Below, one piece after another: positions 38,460-53,898 of a stretch of DNA of 64,000 nucleotides. The notes beneath the pieces were generated by a model, which made no database searches, was not told where the DNA came from, and saw only the letters and a list, made by a program, of their open reading frames with translations. This DNA is from Phanerodontia chrysosporium. Its lineage: Eukaryota; Basidiomycota; Agaricomycetes; Polyporales; Phanerochaetaceae. Made by a program: the position numbers and the translations under genes. Positions within the stretch are counted from its first letter, which is position 1, and the number at the start of each line of letters is the position of its first letter. The stretch is from assembly GCA_001910725.1 (NCBI GenBank), contig MJGA01000002.1, positions 2,356,001 through 2,420,000 of the forward strand, in the 5' to 3' direction.

Positions 38460-40149
38460 TCAGTGAAGCTGGAACGCACTGCCCAGGCCCTGTCCGGAGC
38501 CACCACGAGGCTCCTCTTGCGTGGGCAAGAGACCACCGAATTCAATCTTCCGTGCCAACGAGGCACGGGGAAGAGGCGCGGTCTGGCGGTTGCGGCGAGA
38601 GGACTTGTGACTGGTCGGCGTGACCGGGGGAATGGAAGTCAGAGCGTATGGGCTAGCAGGGACGTTGTGATACACCGCAGGAGAACCTGGACGCATGGAC
38701 GCAGTGCCAGTGCCAGAGCACGAACGGCTGGCGACCGGCGATTGCGGCGTACGCTGGGGGTTGGGCAGCTCGGGACCAAGAATGCTTGGATTGCGCTGCA
38801 AGTTAGCTCGAGGCTTGGAAGCGCGGCTCTGGCTCCCACCCTGTCCGGATGGTGCGGTCTTTGTCGGTACCTTAGACGGCGTCTTTGGTGTAATCCGAGC
38901 CCTCTTGTTAGACGACGTGGGAGCGGGCGAAGCCAGCGGAGACTCGAGGGTTGGAGAAGCGGCCTTGCGGCGAACTCGCTTTGCATTCTGATTCCGCAGT
39001 CTCTCTTCCTCGTCGGAAGATGTGGCGTCTGAGTGCCTAGCGTTAAAGTCGATGCTCATAGCGACAGACTCCAAGCTGTTGCGGGAACTGCCAAAGGAGG
39101 GTGCGCGCTTGATACCACCCGTGCGAGAGGGTATTCCCGTGGTAGTCTCAGACCGCCGCACACGGCGAGTGGCAACTACAAGCTGCTGGTCTGATTCGCT
39201 GGAGGTAGAGCATGCTGACCTGCGGAAAGCAGAAGGCCTAACGTCTGAGAGCCCAGAGTTCAGTGTCATAGAGCTGGGCGTTGAAGGCATCAGAGATGGA
39301 GGTCCGCGAGTGGGAGATGAAGGATGAGCGTAGTGGTTGTACTGGGGGCTAGTGAGGATGCGGTCCGTCTTTTGCAGACGGCGCGAGAGACTGGCGCTGA
39401 CCGTTAGCAGCGCCTCAAAGCGCAGGAAAAGAGTTGCACCGACCGAGTGATGTTTGCATTGTCCTTGAGATCGGTCTTGTCCGGTTGCATAAAATCCATA
39501 CTCGACTGCCTATACAGGGGCCGTCTGAGACCAATGTTAGTCGTCTGCTTGAGCGGCGCGTCGTCTGTGCTATCTTCCTCCGCTATGGTGTCGCTACCAG
39601 ACCCGTCGCGGGACTCCTTGGCACGGGTACGAGCCAATTCGACGATCTTAGCGCGCGTCGCCCGCATGGAATGCTGCCAATTGTTGCCCTTCGCATCAGC
39701 CACGCCTCGCGCAATCTTGTCGAGAAGATTCGAGGGCGGAACGGGACCGTTGAAGGGGGTCAACAGGTGAGAAGGCAACGCGTCGAGAGTCTTTTGATGC
39801 AAGAGGGATAGCGAGGACGCGACCGAGGGAGAAAACGCGGCGCGACACGGTCAGCGCCCCTGCGAACATCGCGACACGCCGTAGAGCGACGCACCCTTTG
39901 CAAGAGACGGATCTGGTCCGGCTTCCAGTCTGGCTCGATTTCGCTCGCGGCGTCGAAGTTGGAGCTGTTCCAGCTGTCCGTGCTGTATCTGTTCGTGTTT
40001 GTCGAAAACAGCGGCAGTGGCTCGGCGCGTCTGGTGGGCGTATGGGGCGTGGATCCGGAACCGGAGATGAGGGCACTCATGTCGCGCGGGCGAGGTGGAA
40101 GAGAAAGCGCAGGGAGCGGCGCAGCGGCGGCGGACGGCCGACCGTGCAT
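38460..40149 (-). CDS. Ser/Arg-rich hypothetical protein, about 512 residues
   Basis: Minus-strand exons 40149-39895, 39790-39444, 39396-38460; phases agree. It begins MHGRPSAAAAPLPALSLPPR (a later ATG, MSALISGSGS at 40080, is possible). The ordered part is short: DWKPDQIRLLQRTLDALPSH, GPVPPSNLLDKIARGVADAK and NNWQHSMRATRAKIVELART. The rest is basic and Ser/Pro-rich (KRVRRKAASPTLESPLASP; RARITPKTPSKVPTKTAPSG), with many SP/TP sites, so a nuclear, CDK-regulated protein is a fair guess. I do not recognise a family. The KDZ transposon sits about 400 bases upstream of this start and may alter its promoter or a leader intron. Confidence 0.75.
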
Positions 40150-40550
40150 AACTGTCCTAGGGTTAGCGAGCGACAAGTTGAACAGGCGAGTGTAGCGTAG
40201 AGGACAACAATGGGGAAGGGCAAGCCGGGCCAACAGCGTCTACCATACAACATCACATCACCTCCTGCACACGTGCCCTTTAGGGCAGACGCCGCCGCGT
40301 GTCCCGCTGAGTTCGATCGGAGTGCAAAACCGCCAGCCGTGACCGTGTCCAGACGCGTACACAAGACGCGTCGGACGCAGTAAAAGACACTTGCGACCGA
40401 GCGGGACGCCGGGGAGTCTAGCGGCGGCGAGACCATCGCGAGGATGTGCAGTAAAGCGTCGCGTCCAACCCGAAGATACTCTGCAAAAGCGCATATACCC
40501 AGCATTGAGACGGTCTGTGACGGCCAGCCACGCACGGAGTAGCGATGGCT
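40150..40550. promoter_or_regulatory. leader/promoter remnant left of the transposon
   Basis: About 400 bases between the minus-strand start codon at 40149 and the transposon. On the minus strand an acceptor-like site (gcgcttttgcag, about 40480) could end a 5' UTR intron. Just right of the element, a donor-like gcggtgagtac lies on the minus strand (about 53910-53920). The insertion may therefore lie within a leader intron. Confidence 0.3.
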
Positions 40551-40558: not shown

Positions 40559-41054
40559 CACCTGACGAGCCCAACTTCCGGCGCTCGTTAGGCTTGGTAT
40601 CAGATCTTGATGGCGAGGCTTGTAGCCTTGCGCCCCAGCGAAATGCGGGCTTCCCGAGAAATGCTCGCAAGCAGAGGGGGCCTCAGGCCCTTCCCTCTGC
40701 CCGAGCCGTCCCTCCCCGGTTCCCCGCGTGATCCCGCCGTCCGCTGCCTTTCCTGGTATCCGCCCGCCCCTCCTTACCATCACGCCGCCCTCCAGCGCTC
40801 TCCCGCCCGCATCCAGACTGCGCGCCGGCGCCTTCGGTTGCCACCTCGCGCCCCGAGCTGAGGCACGTGCCTCCGAGCGTCACCACGCGTCCTCCGGCCT
40901 CTCCCGTCCTCTCCCGCCCTCCCCCAGCCCGCTGTCGGCGCTGCTGGAGCTCTCTCCTCCGTATCGCACTCTTCTGCCATGTAAGAAGACGCTCCCACAC
41001 GATCCCTGCGCTGTCGTCATGTCCAAGTATATTTCTGAATAAATCAATCTTTTT
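40559..41054 (+). repeat. left terminal inverted repeat of the KDZ element, 496 bp
   Basis: It begins CACCTGACGAGCCCAACTTC and ends at aatcaatcttttt. The reverse complement is found at 53898-53454 continuing at 50662-50604 (496 bp after removing the hAT insert and one duplication). Translated frames across the two copies agree residue for residue over more than 100 residues. It contains the single, uninterrupted hAT target site (CACACGAT, about 40998-41005). Confidence 0.94.
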
Positions 41055-41454
41055 GTACTGCTTTTTCCGCCTGTCTTGGGCATATCCAGCCACTAAATTT
41101 GTTACAAAACCAGGGCCTGTTCCTACCTCTGCTACGTGCATTCTGGCATTAAGCAGGGCTGGACAGGGGCGAGGCTATTCTCATAAATGTGCGAGAGATC
41201 AGAGCCCCACCCGCGCTGCGACGGTGATTTGACGCCTGTCGCTCGTCGCTGCGTTCGGCGTCTCCGCTCTAAGTTCGCCGGCTCCTCCACGCTCATCGTC
41301 CATTGCCCGTCGTGCTCTTGCTTCTGCTGCTCGCTTGCTGCCCCTCACTCTGCCTTGCCGTTGGAACGAGTCTCCCGCCCAACTCCTCGCGCGCACAATC
41401 TGTTGAAGCCCGGCATCCCACGCACTCCTCAACCCAGTTGCTCCGTCAGTCAGC

Positions 41455-44400
41455 ATGAAACGTAAACGCACCTCAAGAGGTGTCAGTGTCAGAACGGGCG
41501 ATAGCCATACAAAGGTGGAGAAGGAGACTCGGCTTGGATCGCAGTTTCGCCAGCGGGAGCAGCAGGTGATGAAATTGAGAAGAAGTCACATCACTTGTAA
41601 GTACACTGTGTCGCCCACTCTACCATCAGCTTCATGAGTAACGTAGCCCTCTCACTCGAAGAGCGAGAGCAGTTCCTAGAGCAAGCTCGAGGCAATGCAC
41701 CGGACGAATGGATGGATATTGAAGAGGACGAGGCGCAGGCGTTTGCCACGCTGCCATCTGGTGAAGAAGGCTTCCACGCCAGTCATGCTGGGGGCGAGGA
41801 GGAGCTCTGCCGCATTCTATTTGAACTACCCCAGAAGTGCGTAGACATGATTGCCAATCATAACAGAAGATACTAACACCCTGTGCGCAGAAAGGGCAAG
41901 GACACGCGGACACGTCGCGATCGTCGTGTCCGTCAGACAGAAGATTGGCTGGTGCAAATGCCAGAACTCGTAGACGCATACCTCATGTTCAGTGCGGGGG
42001 CGCAACCAGAATGTCACGGATGTGACGGTGCTGCCCTATTTTTCGCCGATTTTTGACGATTTTCCTCGATTAATCCAACGGGCGAGCAGCCCTCGCGCCG
42101 TCTGGAGTCCTAGCCGCCCACACTCAGCGCCTGGCCACTCAGCGCCAGCGCCCTGATGGCGCATCACCCCTAGACGCCAGCGCATCCCGCTGCGCGCTCA
42201 GACACTGCCCGGATCACCGGTCTGCCTTGCAACCGGCTCCCCGGATCGCCGAGGAGGCACTGTCATCCCTGATGACTCCCCTCGCCGAGACACGCCAAGC
42301 TGATCAGCCTGATGACACAGCCTCGGCCCGACGCAGCCTCGGACACTGCCAGCTGACACAGCCTCGTGACATAGCCCCGCACAGCCTCGCCGCGCAGCCC
42401 GCGTCGCAGCCTCGCTGGCTATGCCAAGCGCTGCCCATCAGCTTAGGTAATCATACAGCCTGCCCTAAAGACTCTGTAGTATATAAGGGTAGCACTCCTC
42501 GCTCCTGTCCGTCATCTCGACCTCTTGGTCAATACGGACAGGTAAGCCCCAGCTTGTATAGTAGAACAGTTTGCTAATGTTAACTTGGTCAATACGGACA
42601 GCTGTACAAGTCTGTTCGTCGCCGCGTGATACGCTCCGCTGCGCCTCGTCGTCGTCCTCCCCATTCGCCCTCCCTCGTGTAGCGTTGAGCCTCTGCTCCG
42701 CGACACAGAAGCTCCACAGATGTCTGAAGGCACCGTCGCTTGGAGTGTCCACCTCATTGATATGTTTTGTAAGTGCGCCCAGATGTTCCCTCAGAGATTT
42801 GCTCACTTTACCCATAGTAAGGGAAACACGGGAGTTCTACAGCACCTCCGACCAATCCGCGAACATGATATTAGCAAGGCATGGCTACATTGGAGTCGCA
42901 CCCAGGCCCACGTGTGCCATCTCTCTGAGGGTGCTAGAGTATTTTCATTACCTCTGTCTCGCGTGCCCAAGGCTTAGCATGCATGCACAAGCGAAGGCGT
43001 TGTGCCGTATGCATCGAGTACGTGGCCTCAGGTTCTCTGCTGCTCTGTCCTAACGATTATCAGGTCGCTTTCGCCCCCTACCTTGCAGTCCAGCTCAGTG
43101 CCGCCTACGACGTCTATTTGGAAATCCGACGTCGTGTCGACAGTCGTGTAGCTGCGGCACTCGGACGCGATTCTCCAGACTGGCGCATGCGTAATGCATG
43201 TGCCCCATGCTTATACACCCTCGACGACGAACCCGAACTCTCCCCGGCAATGCTTGTCAGCATGGATGGCAACCAGTCCTTGAAGCTCATCGACGACATG
43301 TTCCGCTACGGCCCAGGTCGTGAAGACCCACGTGATGCCCGCTCCGACATCTGGCTTTCACCTGAGGAGGTTGACAAGTTCAAAGACGAGGTGGTGAATG
43401 CGCGTATGGTGAGATAGATCCGGCTTCGTATATGCATAGTTCTAACTAAGCTCCTCCAGCGACGGCCCCTGGGTGATGTGCAAGAACTGTCGGCGTCTTC
43501 AAATGAAGATCTCTCCCCTTTCGCGAACACCAGTCACGCTCGCATGCCAACGGGCTCTGCCGAGCAGGGTCCAGAATCTGAGCACCCCGATAACTCTGAC
43601 AACGACACCCCTATTCTCGAGCTGGCTGACGTCGACGGCGACATGAAGGAGCCTCTTGATGAATGCGTGAAGAGGTGGAAGAACGCAGGACCTGAAGCGC
43701 GGAAAAAGATGTTCGCCTTGTTCGCTGTCACCAGTATCTTCATCTCCATTTGTTGGCACGGGCACTTGCTGGCCATTTGCGATATGGTCCGCAGTGGAGA
43801 ACTGTAAGTTCATTCAACTCCGTCAGTGTGTTTCTGACATGTTGCTCAAATATAATGTGCAGGATGAAATATCCACTCGCTATGATCAAGAAGATGGCAG
43901 ACGTGTTCGGCTCCGATTTCCGCTATGGCTACGACATCGCCTGCGCTTTCCACAAGATACTCTGCCGCTCCAGCCTCGGTTCAAGAGTGAAGACTCTCGG
44001 CATCACTGGCGTCGTCCCCGCGTTTCATGGACATGCACACAATCGACGGTGCCAGGTGTCATGGCACCCTCTCTACATGCAAGGATGTGGTAAGGAGGAC
44101 TTCGAGGGGTGCGAGCGCGTTTTCTCCGCGTCAAACTCTCTGGCGACAACGACCCGGTTCGCATCCCCGTTTCACCGCCACCAAGCGATCGACGAGTTCT
44201 TCAAGTACTGGGACGAGGAGAAGTCTGCAGAAGAAGGTTCGTGATAGAATACGACTGCATCTCATGTTATACTCACGCATTGCAGCCCGATTCATCGTGA
44301 ATAACTACCGCCAGGCTCTCAAGATCATCTCAGAAGACGGAATCGCCCTGGATGCCCTGCGTGTGCAGGTTCCGATGAGTGCCGACGACCTCGAGGGCTA

Positions 44401-45603
44401 TCTGGTAGAGGAGACGCTGTACCTTGACTCGCTCACTCACGAGACCGATGAGACCCTCCGGGTAGTCGAGTACATGGAGGTACTGTCAGCTCTGGAATCC
44501 GCATAGTGAGTATCCCCTCAATTCTCTTTTGATGCTGCTCATAAGTGTACAGTGAAGATGCGGCGGCCGCGCGAGCGGACTTTTCGAAGCTCGACCAGTA
44601 CATAATCCGCGACGGCATCGGTACCAAGGAAATTGCAACGATCAAGCGGCGCCATACCACTACATCCCAGAGGTACCTTGAGCTCTGCGAGCATGCACGG
44701 ACTGTCGAAGACACACAAGGAATCGTCGAGCGTTGGCGGAGGGGAACGCCTGCATTTGAGAACGGACTCAGGGTCCTAGCTGAACGGAAATATCGACTCG
44801 CCATTGACAACCTCGAGCGCCTGCTTGTGCAGAGGTTCTTCGAGTTGTCGAAGCTCGGGATGAGTGGAACCGGTGCGTGTCTTGCAACACTGAGGTGCTA
44901 TGCTGACAGTTGCACAGGATATCGGCAGCGGGAGAAGATCACGAAGGCGTTGAAGACCCGAGCGACCGCTATCAAGAAAGCACTCGAAGAGTACAACCGT
45001 CGGGCATCGCAGTTGCCGACTCCCCGGCCCTCTATCTCATGGGCGGAGGCAACGGAAATGGTCTCCGTCGCCGACTTTGACGTTCTCCGCGACACACGGC
45101 AGGACCTCAAGGCTCTCGAGTGGACGGAGCCGCTCCGGCGACGAGCGACAGGCCTGCACTTCAATATCAAGTGTGCAAAGGATGAAATCAAGCGACTTAA
45201 CATCGAGATACCGCGTCTACTCACCAGCATGTACGACGACCATGTCGACTTCTCCCTCGCGATCAAGCAGCACATTTGTACAGACCCGTGGCTCGCCCAC
45301 GAGCTCTCGCTTCGATGGGAACACCGCAACGCGACGAACTTTGCGAAGGCGCGCGAGTTGCATAAGCTGTCAGAGCTGCCCGGCTTCTCCGGGGTTCTGC
45401 ACACTGGCCAGCGGGTAGGGCGCAACCCGAGCCTCAGTAATGGTGTGCCGGTGCCCGGCTGGGCCTCTGCGGCTGCTGTGCTAGATGACGTCTCGACCGA
45501 CACGCACGAGGACGCGCAACATGAAATAGAAGATTTGATCATAGGTCTCACGAATGAAGAGAACGCGAACGACTTTGTAGATTATGTAGATCGCCTTTGT
45601 TAA
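41455..45603 (+). pseudogene. KDZ transposase, interrupted by a solo LTR
   Basis: Exons 41455-41596, 41647-41836, 41891-42011, [LTR], 42711-42768, 42818-43017, 43064-43408, 43460-43803, 43863-44236, 44286-44505, 44553-44872, 44918-45603. Skipping the LTR and one CAGAA copy gives exactly 1,000 codons with no other defect. Family blocks: QTEDWLVQMPELVDAYLMF, ARHGYIGVAPRPTCAISLRV, PYLAVQLSAAYDVYLEIRRR, LVSMDGNQSLKLIDDM (first catalytic Asp region), KRWKNAGPEARKKMFALF, CDMVRSGELMKYPLAM, FRYGYDIACAFHKILC, VVPAFHGHAHNRRCQ, KEDFEGCERVFSASNSLA and FHRHQAIDEFFKYWDEEK. These match the RNase-H-fold KDZ transposases. The N-terminal cysteine cluster seen in some relatives is not obvious. As it stands the gene cannot give a full protein unless the LTR is spliced out. 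Confidence 0.92.
42012..42705 (+). mobile_element. solo LTR, 694 bp, with 5-bp duplication CAGAA
   Basis: It starts TGTCACGGATGTGACGGTGC and ends CTCCGCGACA (TG...CA, with inverted TGTC/GACA ends), flanked by CAGAA at 42007-42011 and 42706-42710. A TATA-like tatataaggg lies near 42479-42488. No internal coding region exists, so it is a solo LTR from recombination of an LTR retrotransposon. The orientation follows the TATA box. An 18-bp repeat (CTTGGTCAATACGGACAG) occurs at 42524-42541 and 42584-42601. Confidence 0.88.
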
Positions 45604-45934
45604 TATATGTCTCAATTCGCTGTGCCGACCTTGTGCATGTGCGAGAATTAATGTGTCAATCGTTGAAGGAGGAGTCCGTTTATGAGTAAATGGGCAAGAC
45701 ATGACGAAAGACGATATACATACTGCTATATCACTTATATTACTGGTTGCACTATTGAAGAGGAGCAGGACGGTAGACACAGAGAACGACGAACGATGAG
45801 CGTCGAGCAGTAACACGCTCACCGCACATGGTACTGATAGCGCCCATCGCGTTCTCGTGCCTTGCATGCACCTCTCGCATTGCTTCCTCCTCACGACGTT
45901 TCCCCTTCCTCGTATCACCACATATTCCCTCTCA
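45604..45934. other. spacer between KDZ transposase and passenger 1
   Basis: About 330 bases inside the transposon. It contains a CT-rich stretch before the passenger start codon, consistent with a promoter. Nothing else seen. Confidence 0.45.
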
Positions 45935-47445
45935 ATGGCTTCTACAACCTTCGAAGATCTTCTGCTCACACCAGACGGCATCTGTCGTCTACGCGCAAAG
46001 CTCAGTACCGGGGTCACACCCCGAGAGCAAGTGCAATACACCGCGAGATTCCGAGCTGCAGACATAGCCTTCCTCGCCCACGGCCTTCATTCTGACAACA
46101 AGCACATCTCTTCATCACGAACCCCATCCTTCCACCAAATGTTCCATGACTTGCAGTCCCAGTGTCCATCTTACAAGGATCGGGAGAGTTTCGTACGGGC
46201 GATCAATGACCTGATAGTAGATCTCGTGTGTTCTTGAACCCCCTTACTCTCTCTCTGTGCATGCTAACGATACTATGTAGATGACTGCAAGAGATCGCAT
46301 GCTCGGTAGCGCAACAGTAATGGTCCATTTCCATGGTGCTCAGCGACCCGGTTTGGAGCCCACAGTCACGAACATGAAGAACGTTGTATATTTCCCCCCC
46401 CCGAATACATGAACAATATACCAACTGCACGCCACGCCATTCTTCGCATCTCACAGATTTTCGCTGAAGGCATCGCAGCCCCAGTCGCAGCACGGTGGCG
46501 AGAAGCGTTCACGGCTGCCGGGTTTGCGCTCCCGACACCACTGCAAGCATCCAACGACGCCGATTCACAAGGGAAAGGGAACCCACTCCGCCCTCATCCT
46601 CTGCCCAGAACCCCCCTCTACCTCATCCAGGGATTTCCCCCACACAGTCTTGAGCAACTCATCGCGGACGAGGCAGTAGACGTCGAGTCGCACGAGGACC
46701 CGGCAGCGCTTGCTGCGCAGATGCAGTCTATGGCGGACGGCTACCAGGAGCGGATCTCGTCGCTCGAGATCCAGGTCAATGAGCTAGAGAGAAAGCTCAT
46801 GCAGCAGGTCGAAGAAAACAATCGTTTGCGCCAATCTCATACTGGCCAAGGTGCGTGCTCAAATATATTGTAAGGTCCCGGAGGCTCACGTTACATGTCC
46901 TAGCTCGCCGCGCCCCTCCCTCAAAGCCACCGTCTTCTACACGTGAAGCGAAAGTAGAGACGGTCTCCACTTGCAGCAAGTCGTCCCTGTCTGACTACGT
47001 CGACATTCCGAGTGTTTCAGCTCGCTCTTTCTCCATCGGCGTCAGCGACCATACGGTACCACCCGCACCTACCTCCTATCCACGGTACCCGCCCACTGTA
47101 TCGGCACCCTCCATCACTGCGTCCTCAACCACTACGAAGACGAACCGCGGCCGCCCAGTCATTCCTTCCAGTCATCCCGCTGTGCCCGATGATGAAGAAG
47201 TCGTACCCTTTGGCCCGCGCACAGAGCGGTGGTTGAAAGACCACAACTTCCATGCTCTTTGGCACATTGTGATCAACAAGGTTGCACACGACGACGCACC
47301 CATTGATTGGTCCAATGCCTTGTTGGCGTACATGTGCCATGAGCGATGCGGTGATGAACGGGAGGAGAATCGAGCATGGGCGACAAGTCTAGCAAAGGCT
47401 ATGCATCGTGATAAGCATATTCGTTGGTCTGAACCCGCTGTATAA
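45935..47445 (+). CDS. KDZ passenger gene 1: coiled-coil unknown protein
   Basis: Exons 45935-46225, 46281-46850, 46904-47445. It starts MASTTFEDLLLTPDGICRLR. Ordered segments: PREQVQYTARFRAADIAFLA, SFVRAINDLIVDLMTARDRM, MNNIPTARHAILRISQIFAE, GIAAPVAARWREAFTAAGFA. A coiled coil (YQERISSLEIQVNELERKLM...) is followed by a Ser/Thr/Pro linker and a C-terminal block (RTERWLKDHNFHALWHIVIN ... NRAWATSLAKAMHRDKHIRW). About 502 residues if one C is restored in the nine-C run 46394-46402, where the frame breaks (YFPPP...EYMNNIP). No named domain recognised. Same strand as the transposase and passenger 2, with short spacers, so it belongs to the element. Function unknown. Confidence 0.72.
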
Positions 47446-47580
47446 GTAATTGTCCTGCACACGTGATCTCCATCGAGTTCGTTTTCTAGTTCGCAAAGCG
47501 CCTAAGCTTTGGTTTCGCACCATTCCCGCGCTCGAGATACCCACGCATCGTCCAGTGCAGGTCACAGGACAGTGAGAAGA

Positions 47581-50297
47581 ATGGACACGGCGTCCACAAG
47601 TCATGGTGCAGCGCCCACCCTTACCACTGCTTCTCAACCACCGCGCACGAGGGCACCTGTACCTCCAATGAGCAGTCACGAGCGAGCTGCGAAGACTAAT
47701 CAACGGAAGGAACGCCAGAATGCAATTGAACGGGACGTCGAGTCGTGGTATCAAGATACAGTCAAGTTCGCTGCAAAAATGGCGACTGATCACGGAAAAA
47801 CCACCCAGCATTTCCTCAACGTCCTCTTCACGCATGCAACACATATTCTCAACCAGCGCGGCCCCAACGCATGGAATGCCTTCTTACACGTCACGTCGCA
47901 GGATATTCCGCCTAGCGGTAAGCTGTCGCTGTGCCACGTCTTTGATATATGAACTCATTCAGCTGGCAGAGCTCGGCAAGTCCGGACGTGAATACCTGCT
48001 GGCGCTGCAAGATGCGAGCCGTGAATCTTACGACAACCTCACCGATGAGCAAAAGCAAGACTTGATCGAAATTCTGGAAGAACACCGCCAAAAGCTCGCA
48101 CATTGCCAACGCATGTCTCAGCGGTCACGGACGCAAGACGTGTCACATGTTCTGGCCACAATCGAGAGTCTGGTATGGATGCTCATTCGTGTGTATGCGT
48201 TAACTTACCAGTAAGCTCCAGCTACGTGCACTTCGGGATCGCTGCGGAGTCGACGCCTTCATGTGTATCGTCCGAAACACGCCCGAGTTCTTCATGGAGC
48301 CGAGATGGTTCTTCACACGTGCGGGGATCGACGAGTACCTGAGCATAGCGGTCCGCCAGAAGGCCGGTTGGGACTGCAACGTCATCGGCCAGCTGACGGA
48401 GGCATTCTGTGTTGCTGGTGGGGACATTGCGAGTGCGTGGATATTTTTTTCAGGCATTCAGGTTGTCGCTAACATCATCCAAAAGGTATCTATAGAGATC
48501 ACAAGTCGCGCTGCGATTATTTGAAGCGCCTTATACAAGAAAAGCTCTTGCGGATGCTAAGTAAGTTCAAGGAATGGCTTACAATGTTCTAAAGCTCACA
48601 TTAGCGCAGTCTCAATCACCAATAATCCGAAAATCGGCATGGAATACGTTCACTTCCATGAGAAGATCCGGCGCACTTACAAGATCGACCTCGTAGGCTG
48701 GACAGGCCCGCCGTTCAAGTGCCTGTCGAAGATGTCGAACAACCAGACTGAGCTTGACGAGCTCCTGGATGCGCTCCGAAGTGGCAAGTGCAAGTTCATT
48801 AAGCTCACCACGGAAGAGGTGATCCAGAAGCACGCCGAGTACCTGGCTGAGGTCGCCGCAGGAACTGCCGTCCTGCCCAAACCTCGGAAGAAGCGGGCGG
48901 ACGCCGGTACGAAGAGGAAACGGGTGGTGCAGCCTGATAGCGGTGACGACGATACGAGCAGTGGCGTGGACGACGGCGGAAGTGAGAACGATGGTGGGGA
49001 CGAGAACGATGGCAGGGATGGGAACGATCAGGCAGGTATCGGCGGAGACAGGCAGCGTGCACGACCGGCAGAGCCTCAGGCTCCAGCGCGGCGCGAACCG
49101 TCTTCCAGCATTACGTACATCGCAGACGACCCGGCCTCCAAGAAGCGCAAGACTGCCTTTCAGCAGAAGGCGAAGCGCAGCGGTGAAGCATCTCAAAGAG
49201 CACCGCCCAAGCCAAGGTCGAGGGTGCATGCACCCCAGCCCGGACCCAGCGAACCCAGCCCTCTGTCGACGATGCCGAATGCTGCACCTTCACCCGCAGT
49301 GCCATCTCACGTGTCGCAAGCACCATCCCTGTCATCGCCCATGCAGCAGCCACAGTCACCGCAGCCGCCTCCATCAACCCAGCCTCCTTATCCTCCCCCA
49401 TCCCGTTCACCTCCACTGCTGCAACTACCGTCTTCTCGTTCGTCGCCGCCGCTGCCACCATCACCGCCGGCGGCTGCTTTGCCGCTTTCCCAACTGTCTC
49501 CACCATCGACGTGGTCACAATCTCCGCCTCCAGCGTCGCAACCTCCGCCTTTCCCAAGAACGACGCCGCCGGCATCGTCGACGCAGCCGCCTCTGTTTCG
49601 CGCGTCCCAGCCCCCGCCGTCGACGCAGCCGCCTCTGTTTCGCGCGTCCCAGCCCCCGCCGTCGATGCAGCCGCCTCTGTTTCGCGCGTCCCAGCCCCCG
49701 CTGTCGACGCAGCCGCCCCCATCTCGCATGACCCATCCGCCCCTGTCAATGCAGCCGCTATCCCAGCCACTGCCTTTGACGCAGCCATCAACGCATTTTC
49801 AAATGACGCCGTTGCCATCATGGGCACATCCGGCACCTTCTCATGCGGCGCAACCCCTGCCCCGGTACACGTCGCAGCTGCCGCCACCACCACCAGGGAT
49901 GTATGTGTTACCTTCCGGCGCGTCGCAGCCGCTGTCACCAATGCACCCGCACTCCCATCACATGCTGTCCTCTCTTCCCTCACCGCAATTGCCACTTACG
50001 GTACAGCAGCAGCCGCCTCTCGAACCGGTCGGAATGTCAACGTCCCTGTCGCCACATCGATACCCTCATCCCGCATTGCAGCTACCTCCCCACAGGCCCG
50101 CTTCACAACCACAAGTCCACCCATCCGCAGCACGCTCTCTATACCCTGCTGCGCCGCCAGCATACTACCCACATCCATTATTGACTACGACGCCTGCAGG
50201 CAGCCGTCAGGGTGACGACTACTATTCCTTTATTCGAGGTCGTATTAATGCTCAGAATATTACTACACCGGGTCCGTCACGCAGCCCTCCTACGTAG
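47581..50297 (+). CDS. KDZ passenger gene 2: unknown protein with Pro-rich repeat tail, 841 residues
   Basis: Exons 47581-47917, 47970-48172, 48216-48432, 48486-48561, 48605-50297; 842 codons, all phases agree, no defects. It starts MDTASTSHGAAPTLTTASQP. Ordered N-terminal half: NAIERDVESWYQDTVKFAAK, LLALQDASRESYDNLTDEQK, CGVDAFMCIVRNTPEFFMEP, DYLKRLIQEKALADA, NPKIGMEYVHFHEKIRRTYK and IDLVGWTGPPFKCLSKM, ELDELLDALRSGKCKFIKLT. A basic cluster (KPRKKRADAGTKRKR) should act as a nuclear signal. The C-terminal 400 residues are Pro/Ser/Gln-rich with a 14-residue tandem repeat. The ordered half resembles unknown proteins that are abundant in Agaricomycete genomes; I know no function. An intact frame in a recent transposon implies it has been under selection or is young. 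Confidence 0.78.
49574..49715 (+). repeat. 42-bp tandem repeat, about 3.4 copies, in passenger 2
   Basis: The unit encodes QPPPSTQPPLFRAS. Copies differ by one or two bases (STQ, SMQ, LSTQ variants), so the array is young. The flanking Pro-rich stretches (SRMTHPPLSMQP) look like older, diverged copies. Confidence 0.88.
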
Positions 50298-50603
50298 TTT
50301 ACTCATAGTATACTTATATCGTATCTACTGAACGCTTCCGCGCATAATTCAATGCCCTTTATCGCACTCCAGAAGAGATTCTCGCACAGCAGCACGTCTC
50401 GAAGGGGCAAGCGCCCAGGCTTCGTGGCGTCGTCAGATCATGGCAGCTCGGCGCTTACAGCTTCAAATGCAGATAGGGTGATGGTTAGTCGTTGAGCAGC
50501 GTTGCGAAAGGTATAGACATAGCATACTCATGAGAGCACTGAGCACCCAATGATCAAGGAGACGAGAGATGGCCAATATACATACAGTGTGATATTTCGA
50601 GCA
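50298..50603. other. 3' flank of passenger 2 inside the KDZ element
   Basis: About 300 bases between the passenger stop and the inner edge of the right inverted repeat. No feature seen. Confidence 0.45.
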
Positions 50604-50654
50604 AAAAAGATTGATTTATTCAGAAATATACTTGGACATGACGACAGCGCAGGG

Positions 50655-50662
50655 ATCGTGTG
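50655..50662. repeat. hAT target-site duplication ATCGTGTG (left copy; right copy 53454-53461)
   Basis: Perfect 8-bp direct repeat flanking the hAT ends. The uninterrupted left arm holds one copy only. Confidence 0.94.
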
Positions 50663-53453
50663 TAGTGTAGGGGGCAAAATTAATTCGTCGTGTTTTGCCA
50701 GGCAAAATGGCAGAATGGCAATTGCCACATGTGGCAGAATGCGGCAGAAATCTATTGGGCGCTAAAGTGACACACCGTTCTGAGCCATGAGCAGAGCGAC
50801 GTCCCACGACTTATCCGCCTTGTCCGTGACGACCTTCACCTGCTCCGCATACGACGCCGGCACCTGACCCTTTTCGACCCTCTCATACTCGTCAAAGTCG
50901 TACACCTTGCCTTCAAGAACCTCCTGGTCATTTACTTCCGCAAGCTCCTCCGTCTCCCTCTCCCTCCGAAAGCGTTCGAATTCGGCTTCGAGCTCGTCCA
51001 ACGAGATGGATTCAGGATCCTCAGGTGCAGAGTCAGTGGAGTCCTCATTGGACAATGGAGGAAGGTACGTCCAGTCCTGCTCGAGGCTCTCTGCGACATC
51101 TAGATTAATGCCGTGTTCAGGACGGGTGTGCATGTGTGCATGCTTCCGTCGTGGGGGTTTCCCGCCGTTCGCAAGGCACGCCTCGGTCCAAAGCTTGAAC
51201 AACAGGTTCGTGCGTATCTTGCCCAATGCTTCGAACGTTTCCACTGATAGCTGACACCGCTTCACAGACTGGACGCCGCCGAGAGCTGAGAAGAGTCGTT
51301 CCACTTCCGCGGAGTGAGGGACAATGGTGAAGAGGGCGATCGCAAGGGCTCTGATTGGGTGCGTGGAATTGTCAACTGATAGCTGTTCCCACCATTCAAG
51401 ACCGTCCCGTAGGCCGCCGCTGAAGACACCCTTGCCGGAGTAATACTCCCGCATGTTGTCGATGAGTCGCCTAGCCCTTAACTCGTCCCAGCCCCATTTC
51501 CTCGCCAACTCCAGCCCGACTTTGATCATGAACTCAACTGAGCGGCCGCTTGTGACCTGGCCGACAGCAAGCTTGCGGCAAAGCGGATGGAGGAAGAGGG
51601 CGAGCGAGTGCAGGTCCGTGTTCATGTTGTGGAAGCGTTTGTTGAAGACTGACCGCGCGTGCATGTAGAATCCGTGGTCATCATCTTCAGGGTCCAGCGG
51701 GAGTTTGGCGAGGTCGCGGGCTACCCGAATAAGCTCCAGCATGCAGTCCGCAAGGGTCGCCTCTCGGGACTCAACATTCCCGATAGCATCCACGATCGGC
51801 TTCGTCGTCTTGATGAGCTGGTTGAGCAGCTGCCAGTACCTCTCGGTATGTAGCACAATCCGGACGACTTCTGGTGCGACAGGGGTAAGTCCATTGGTCT
51901 TCTTTTGCGCATCAGGGCGGGCGCAGGTTGTTACGAGTGCATCTCTGAGGGCTTGTCAAAGGATGTCTAGCAACAAGTATGGTAGATAAGACCCACCTGT
52001 AACTCTGTACGCTAAGTGCTTGTAGAATAAGAGCATACCATCGTGACTCGCAGTTCTGCTTGAGAGTGCGACGGACGCCGTCTTGCTTCGCTCGCCTGTC
52101 AAGCTGCCCACTCCAGTAATGGGATCTGTTGAAGAATGAGACGATCTTCGTTGTCCGGGTGACGTTCTCTTTCATAACAGGATAGCTGCATATCTCGCCG
52201 ATAATATTTCCAAGTGCGTGTAGGAAGCAGCCAACAGTCTGCCATGATGATCAGTCTGGTATCATAGGGCAGGTGCAGTAATACCAGTACTCACCACGAT
52301 CCATGGGAACTTCTCCTCAAATTTACGTCGCACTGCAACCATAGTGGTTGGACTGTCAGTGGTGATGGCAATGAACTGACGCCCCTTCTCGAGCCCTTGC
52401 TTCTGCAGCGCCTTCATTCCAGATTCAAAGATATTCTCCGCCGTCGCGCGCACACCCGTCAAGTCATCGAGACTGAGTACACTGGGGTATTGATTGACTT
52501 CCGCAGCGACACAACCATACAGCTCACGCTTCGTACGGTCCTCCCAGCCGTCAAGCAGAAGGGTCAGGAAGGTGCGCTTCCCGAGACGATCCTGCTCTTC
52601 AAGTTCTACACGAGCGAGTTCCGAGTTGAGTATGCGATGAGACAGAATATATCGGCTTGGTGGCATGTATGATGGGCGGATGATATTCGTGAACTTGGAG
52701 AAATATTCGCTCTCGGCAGCGCGAAATGATATATTGACATGCACGAGCCATCTGGAAAACTGTCAGGTACGTCTGCTACTGATGGGCAATGTACATACCG
52801 GAACAGGGCGAGATCTGCCGCTGACTGTTGCGCCGGCGTGAGAGCCTGGTCGACATATCCATCGAGCGTAGTTCCACGCTTCTTCTTCCGTGCTTCGATT
52901 GGCGTGCCCACGTCATTGTCCAATATTGTGATAGGTGAGCTGGAGGAACCGTCTTCGTTGCTCGAGGTAGCAGCCTCGGGGGTCCTTGTGGACTTGAAGG
53001 AGCTCTTCCTTGCCTGCCCGCCCTTGCCCATCAGGTACTGCAATGCACGTACACGGACATGCTGTGGCGCCTCAGGGCACTTCTCGGCATTGCTGAGATG
53101 CTTCGCAAGGGCGTCATCGCGATGTTCAAGTTTCGTTCCGCAATGGTCACAGCTGTAGTAATATCGGTTTGATTTGTTTGCCACCTGTTCGAGACAAGTG
53201 AAGTTATCGGTAACTAATGCCGCAGGCGGGCGGCCGCGTTGGAGACCCATGTGAGGAAGACGCGGGATAGGACGGTGGATAAGGGAGCAAATTTTGCGTC
53301 GGACACTCAGTTTCGCTGCCATAACATCACATATCTAGTAATTACTATATCTAGATTCTGCCACTTTTTGCCGAACCCTGTCAGTTTCTGCCATTCTGCC
53401 ACCCTCGGCAATTGCCATTCTGGCAAAACGGCAGATGTTTGCCAACCACACTA
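50663..53453 (-). mobile_element. hAT transposon, 2,791 bp, apparently intact
   Basis: Ends are TAGTGTAGGGGGCAAAA on the left and the inverse of TAGTGTGGTTGGCAAAC on the right, flanked by the perfect duplication ATCGTGTG. Subterminal copies of a GGCAGA/TCTGCC motif and ggcaattgcc occur at both ends (50695-50755 and 53355-53440), likely transposase-binding sites. It encodes one complete transposase. All parts need be present for it to move, and I see no defect. Confidence 0.93.
50762..53322 (-). CDS. hAT transposase with BED zinc finger, 801 residues
   Basis: Minus-strand exons 53322-52799, 52751-52295, 52238-51997, 51944-50762; 802 codons, no defect. It starts MAAKLSVRRKICSLIHRPIP (a start at MGLQRGRPPAALVTDNF, 53250, is possible). 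BED-type finger: YYSCDHCGTKLEHRDDALAK with HLSNAEKC. Middle: TTLDGYVDQALTPAQQSAAD, LFRWLVHVNISFRAAESEYF, TFLTLLLDGWEDRTKRELYG, IAITTDSPTTMVAVRRKF (catalytic Asp region), GCFLHALGNIIGEI. C-terminal hAT dimerisation block: HPIRALAIALFTIVPHSAEV, ERLFSALGGVQSVKRCQLSV. The tail is acidic. It cuts and joins the ends of its own element. Confidence 0.93.
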
Positions 53454-53898
53454 ATCGTGTGGGAGCGTCTTCTTACATGGCAGAAGAGTGCGATACGGAG
53501 GAGAGAGCTCCAGCAGCGCCGACAGCGGGCTGGGGGAGGGCGGGAGAGGACGGGAGAGGCCGGAGGACGCGTGGTGACGCTCGGAGGCACGTGCCTCAGC
53601 TCGGGGCGCGAGGTGGCAACCGAAGGCGCCGGCGCGCAGTCTGGATGCGGGCGGGAGAGCGCTGGAGGGCGGCGTGATGGTAAGGAGGGGCGGGCGGATA
53701 CCAGGAAAGGCAGCGGACGGCGGGATCACGCGGGGAACCGGGGAGGGACGGCTCGGGCAGAGGGAAGGGCCTGAGGCCCCCTCTGCTTGCGAGCATTTCT
53801 CGGGAAGCCCGCATTTCGCTGGGGCGCAAGGCTACAAGCCTCGCCATCAAGATCTGATACCAAGCCTAACGAGCGCCGGAAGTTGGGCTCGTCAGGTG

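Follow-up and report, generated by a model that had tools for sequence, protein, structure and literature searches.

The stretch analysed here (the window), 64,000 nucleotides of Phanerodontia chrysosporium DNA from contig MJGA01000002.1, contains at positions 40559-53898 an element of the KDZ type, a poorly understood kind of fungal DNA transposon. The element has the termini 5'-CACCTGA...TCAGGTG-3', long terminal inverted repeats (TIRs, here also called arms) and a perfect 8-bp target-site duplication, CACAGGAA, on its two sides. Its interior holds three genes on the plus strand, a KDZ transposase gene followed by two genes referred to below as gene 2 and gene 3 (Table 1). Because genes 2 and 3 recur beside the transposase in related elements and gene 3 resembles a DNA-bending protein, we regard both as probably belonging to the jumping machinery of the element and not as casual cargo.

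A KDZ transposon with 496-bp arms

An earlier, sequence-only reading of this locus had described a complete giant KDZ transposon with inverted ends of 496 bp and two passenger genes. Its account of the ends and contents was borne out. Both arms measure 496 bp once a hAT element lodged in the right arm is taken out, and the two parts of the right arm match the left one at 445/445 and 59/59 positions. The hAT insertion is itself flanked by a duplication, ATCGTGTG, and has further copies in the genome, two of them near-full (99% and 90% along the full query) and two partial. All three interior genes could be located. The assignment to KDZ also held: in a genome profile search with PF18758, two matches above cut-off covered profile positions 2-217, and separate transposase exons scored 154.6, 51.5 and 26 bits (cut-off 26.6). 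The features of KDZ membership are thus present, namely PF18758 and TIRs with an 8-bp duplication, a combination also known from Zisupton and Cryptococcus KDZ1. The CxC cysteine cluster was treated as an associated feature, not as a defining one; it gave no match among the tested pieces of the window (where the region is split by a long terminal repeat, LTR), C13 and C105, and CxC1 at C80 reached 16.1 bits, below the cut-off of 26.9 (C-numbers denote contigs of the same genome).

Other parts of the sequence-only reading fared less well. With inserts subtracted the element is about 9.8 kb long, which is an ordinary size for KDZ and falls within the 9.2-11 kb of the Cryptococcus elements (PMC12810828), and "giant" is therefore not warranted. 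Nor is the copy complete, the transposase gene being split by a solo LTR, the right arm by the hAT element and the frame of gene 2 by a break. Absence of a TET/JBP gene stands as far as none was detected; the genome-wide search with PF12851 yielded no match, a weak null since control genomes were silent as well.

The gene trio in other elements of the genome

The genome profile search returned 17 KDZ matches, distributed over ten places (C13, the window, three in C105, C80, C139, two in C75, one of them below cut-off, and C96). On C13 lies an 11.4-kb element with identical arms and a perfect duplication, GAGCAGTC, in which transposase, gene 2 and gene 3 follow each other in the same order as in the window. 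Measured over three segments for each protein, identity between the two elements is 62-78% for the transposase, 30-45% for gene 2 and 34-53% for gene 3, and in both passenger genes the introns can be set at corresponding sites in the two elements. In all nine segments kept for codon comparison, the proportion of nonsynonymous differences (pN) is below that of synonymous differences (pS), the latter being 0.67-0.85, near saturation; a tenth segment, from the proline tail, was dropped since the C13 slice was out of frame, with 8 stops. The C105 element has the trio in the same order between arms of about 255 bp with CACCTATG ends, and its flanks are unequal (TGCTCTCG versus CCCAGTCC) within a rearranged array. 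The C139 element has 600-bp arms and the duplication GAGATGAT; gene 3 lies inside its TIRs, on the strand opposite to the transposase. In the profile searches the matches to C13 and C105 depend on the profiles themselves, whereas those found pairwise are independent of them. Thus, the association of the passengers with the transposase, assumed in the sequence-only reading, turned out to be stronger than supposed. As a separate observation, the third KDZ element is present at C105:1-16300 and on C72 in rearranged copies that are in part inverted and in tandem, with near-identical repeats.

Matches to gene 3 were found at nine places in the genome, four of which lie within TIR-bounded KDZ elements (window, C13, C105, C139). 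Two further ones belong to truncated relatives of the C105 element, on C72 (3,840 bp, 99.97%) and C23 (near-identical exons). A gene-3-like exon at C80:92772-92936, on the minus strand, is situated some 13 kb away from a KDZ transposase on the plus strand, in a divergent layout like that of C139. The remaining two, C42 and C113, are considered below.

The genome search uncovered no close copy of the ends of the window element. The nearest are those of a short element at C80:484748-486741 (about 2.0 kb), which are 75-76% alike. Two more short elements, C53:341694-344317 (about 2.6 kb) and C91:55200-57891 (about 2.7 kb), are 93% alike and have C13-like ends. The ends of all three are related, each is flanked by a perfect 8-bp duplication, and since blastn gave no match between their sequences outside the arms and the four full elements, they look like non-autonomous derivatives. 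For this reason the three short elements do not speak against the linkage of the passengers to the transposase.

Products of genes 2 and 3

Splice sites of both genes were picked among GT-AG candidates. A single-exon protein search gave no match, and single-protein searches of the PDB retrieved no convincing relative of either gene product. The sequence-only reading had both proteins without a recognised domain. For gene 2 this stands: no Pfam domain scored above cut-off, and its profile brought up nine weak PDB rows, by name mostly coiled-coil proteins. A rough, ad hoc heptad score of gene 2 was matched by 34 (window), 63 (C13) and 0 (C105) of 5000 shuffled sequences.

Gene 3 departs from that description in that it looks, by sequence comparison, as though it contains a divergent HMG-box-like region, although single members score weakly against HMG-box profiles. 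When a profile of this region was compared with the PDB, HMG boxes made up 24 of the first 25 matches and 29 of 60 among the matches listed, as against 0 of 7 for the reversed-profile control. A further PDB search with a gene-3 profile had an HMG box in 7 of 8 rows. Among single members, C13 scored 15.6 bits, and a hand-spliced C139 fragment 12.7 bits against HMG_box (cut-off 25.4). The basic motif KPRKKRADAG is common to all five aligned gene-3 sequences, and the 416-aa core of the protein has two relatives among 6993 candidates, from Trametes sanguinea and Phanerochaete sordida. The proline-rich tail of the C13 protein has repeats of its own (C13:43305-43687). Two structure models of gene 3, built from the same 11 alignment rows (mostly exon fragments), had predicted template modelling scores (pTM) of 0.32 and 0.35; Foldseek found no match to them at E 0.001 or better, and weak fold matches of the middle and C-terminal parts were to transcription-factor domains (MADS-box, GTF2I-like). 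Neither gene 2 nor gene 3 has a Pfam match to a Myb/SANT/MADF partner protein.

No HMG-box protein was found described in KDZ elements in a literature search that did not extend to the founding study (Iyer et al. 2014, PNAS) or to the supplementary KDZ TIR-motif figure of PMC8290104. An earlier description of such a partner may exist.

Arm identity, age and role of the three-gene module

The sequence-only reading had taken the matching arms and the perfect duplication as signs of recent movement. As for the duplication, six of the seven elements with CACCT termini that we compared have a perfect 8-bp one (chance per given site, 4^-8). Dating the insertion by its identical arms was set aside, since near-identical arms are shared by all seven. 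With gap columns left out (C53 has 68 of them, C80b 16 and the rest 0-4), identity over the aligned columns runs from 98.7 to 100%: 445/445 in the window, 352/352 in C13, 591/599 in C139, 254/254 in C105, 366/366 in C53, 426/428 in C91 and 554/558 in C80b. When different elements are compared, similarity in the first 250 bp drops to about that of shuffled sequence except in the pairs window-C80b, C13-C53, C13-C91 and C53-C91; the window-C139 comparison was no better than shuffled sequence. Because arms are near-identical within all seven elements yet differ between elements, their identity more likely points to homogenisation than to how old an individual insertion is; it may come about by gene conversion or at transposition. 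That the element moved very recently is possible, if somewhat doubtful: the arms are identical at every position and the target-site duplication is intact, as a young insertion would have it, but the same near-identity prevails in all seven elements, and the window copy has already acquired a solo LTR, a hAT element and a frame break. An eighth inverted-repeat pair, at C96:55944-58188, stands outside this comparison; it has 606-bp repeats, 91.7% alike, with other termini, near a decayed KDZ transposase.

As regards the later insertions, the solo LTR had escaped the sequence-only reading; protein similarity of the transposase to that of C13 ends at 42011 and picks up again at 42820, across this LTR. 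An LTR query of 693 bp (42012-42704, the last base left off) matched at least 40 other genomic sites, 39 of which span all or almost all of it, a lower bound as 40 of 433 candidates were scored; some matches are paired about 7 kb apart, the pattern expected of full retrotransposons. Since the LTR splits the transposase gene, the window copy is, judging from its sequence, probably non-autonomous now. The frame change in gene 2, at a run of nine C, may be a sequencing error. To the left of the element, open frames at 38460-40239 on the minus strand may represent a host gene; two frames tested from this segment had no Pfam match. The guessed start of this possible gene is some 0.4 kb away from the left end of the element, which may therefore have landed in its promoter.

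Table 1. Features of the KDZ element and of its insertions in the window
Feature	Position	Strand	Basis
Target-site duplication, left copy, 8 bp, CACAGGAA	40551-40558		sequence
TIR, left, 496 bp, terminus 5'-CACCTGA	40559-41054	+	arm comparison
KDZ transposase gene, several exons, start codon predicted, split by solo LTR	41455-45603	+	PF18758; exon-by-exon match to C13, C105
Duplication of LTR insertion, left, 5 bp, CAGAA	42007-42011		sequence
Solo LTR (TGTCAC...GCGACA), 694 bp, within transposase coding region	42012-42705	+	genome matches; break in protein match to C13
Duplication of LTR insertion, right, 5 bp, CAGAA	42706-42710		sequence
Gene 2, predicted coiled-coil protein; exons 45935-46225, 46281-46850, 46904-47445	45935-47445	+	relatives, splice candidates
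Nine-C run, frame change of gene 2	46394-46402	+	sequence
Gene 3, 837 aa, open; exons 47581-47917, 47970-48172, 48222-48432, 48486-48560, 48610-50297	47581-50297	+	relatives, GT-AG candidates
HMG-box-like region of gene 3, approximate, interrupted by intron 47918-47969	47863-48115	+	profile matches, reversed control
Conserved basic motif KPRKKRADAG of gene 3, approximate	48876-48926	+	alignment
Gene 3, proline-rich tail, with repeats spaced by 42 bp at 49576-49758	48990-50294	+	sequence
TIR, right, inner part	50604-50662	-	59/59 identical to left arm
hAT element, about 2.8 kb, within right arm; duplication ATCGTGTG at 50655-50662 and 53454-53461	50663-53453	-	sequence, genome copies
TIR, right, outer part, 445 bp	53454-53898	-	445/445 identical to left arm
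Target-site duplication, right copy, 8 bp, CACAGGAA	53899-53906		sequence

The element is best read as a cut-and-paste KDZ transposon with long TIRs and 8-bp duplications, and we consider it fairly probable that it encodes a three-protein module in which gene 3 supplies an architectural DNA binder assisting end pairing. The transposase would cut at the CACCTG ends, and staggered joining would generate the 8-bp duplications. The gene-3 protein, with its HMG-box-like region and conserved basic motif, would enter the nucleus, bind and bend the arms and help to pair the two ends, by analogy with host HMGB1 in the case of Sleeping Beauty and RAG; the predicted coiled-coil protein of gene 2 might bridge the partners in the complex.

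Known systems offer partial parallels. KDZ1-3 of Cryptococcus neoformans, which have been shown to move, resemble the window element in having a KDZ transposase, TIRs, a similar size and, in KDZ1, an 8-bp duplication (4-8 bp in KDZ2 and KDZ3); they differ in that their TIRs are 139-241 bp long and their transposase carries CxC1, whereas the window element has 496-bp arms and no CxC match in the pieces tested, as well as companion genes of which the available text of PMC12810828 makes no mention. In Pleurotus, CxC2 clusters precede intact KDZ transposons (PMC7641404). The Kyakuja families of Agaricomycotina share with the window element the KDZ transposase, CA..TG termini and occurrence in mushroom-forming fungi. 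Those described have a 7-bp duplication, no TIRs and a TET/JBP gene (Kojima 2025, PMC12730594), unlike the window element with its 496-bp TIRs, 8-bp duplication and no detected TET/JBP, and we do not class it as Kyakuja. Compared by description, Zisupton and Dileera also make 8-bp duplications, Zisupton with TIRs; an HMG-box-like partner is not mentioned for them in the accessible part of PMC12730594. PIF/Harbinger elements encode a transposase and a second, DNA-binding protein (Myb/SANT/MADF), both reported to be required (PMC9710019). Here the likeness is in organisation only, as their transposase is unrelated, their partner is of the Myb/SANT/MADF type and their duplication is 3 bp, in contrast to the HMG-box-like and putative coiled-coil proteins of the window element. 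HMGB1 is recruited to the TIRs of Sleeping Beauty, where it aids bending (PMC7827188), and stimulates RAG (PMC2324110). An HMG-box protein thus aids paired-end assembly in Sleeping Beauty and RAG1/2, as may happen in the window element, with the difference that HMGB1 is encoded by the host and the gene-3 protein by the element.

Several results weigh against the three-protein account. The best E-value of the gene-3 region profile against the PDB was 0.0069. Gene 3 of the window had no Pfam HMG match (core at E 1, fragment at E 10), nor had the C105 and Phanerochaete fragments, and the Trametes relative scored 27.9 bits as a fragment and 22.0 whole, with a cut-off of 22.4. No HMG-box chain appeared in the fold matches listed (48 of 48, the best 50 of 69, and 37 and 45 rows), so that the HMG assignment derives from sequence comparison and not from structure. 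Gene 2 had no relative outside its own genome among 7996 database candidates searched. The KDZ loci C80 (103001-113000), C75 (201001-211000) and C96 (55001-65000) had neither gene 2 nor gene 3 at E < 1 in the 10 kb taken for each, and relatives of gene 3 occur on two contigs, C42 and C113, with no KDZ match. Finally, the codon alignments were guided by protein and near saturation, which biases them toward low pN.

It is also conceivable, if on the unlikely side, that the two companion genes form a conserved cargo acting in anti-silencing or in control of the element's own transcription, outside the cutting complex, as has been proposed for TET/JBP in other KDZ elements. The TET/JBP proteins of transposons have been argued to help escape from silencing (Kojima 2025, PMC12730594), an HMG-box-like or other DNA binder could act on chromatin or promoters, and the weak similarity in fold between gene 3 and transcription-factor domains fits such a role. 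Against it, neither gene has a methylation, TET/JBP or chromatin-enzyme domain above cut-off; nothing more specific opposes it, because what the data establish is linkage and constraint and not a role. A more elaborate proposal, which we regard as speculative and rather improbable, would have a KDZ lineage with an architecture factor of its own, gene 3 combining an HMG box with DNA-binding modules of MADS-like and GTF2I-like type and a basic tail, and forming a paired-end complex with gene 2 and transposase independently of host HMGB, its homogenised arms co-evolving with the binding protein. Finally, it is highly improbable that genes 2 and 3 lie beside the transposase by chance or stem from a single capture of host genes by this element: their shortage of known domains and the three KDZ loci without them would suit such an origin, but they recur in the same order in C13 and C105, with gene 3 also in C139, in strongly diverged sequences with signs of constraint on the proteins (pN < pS), and the C13, C105 and C139 elements led us to reject it.

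Should the products of genes 2 and 3 prove to be accessory proteins of transposition, they would provide a testable parts list for moving large KDZ elements, and gene 3 would be a marker for KDZ elements with a decayed transposase. A partner of HMG-box-like type encoded by the element itself, if real, would parallel host HMGB1 in Sleeping Beauty and RAG and make the need for DNA-bending helpers testable within one element.

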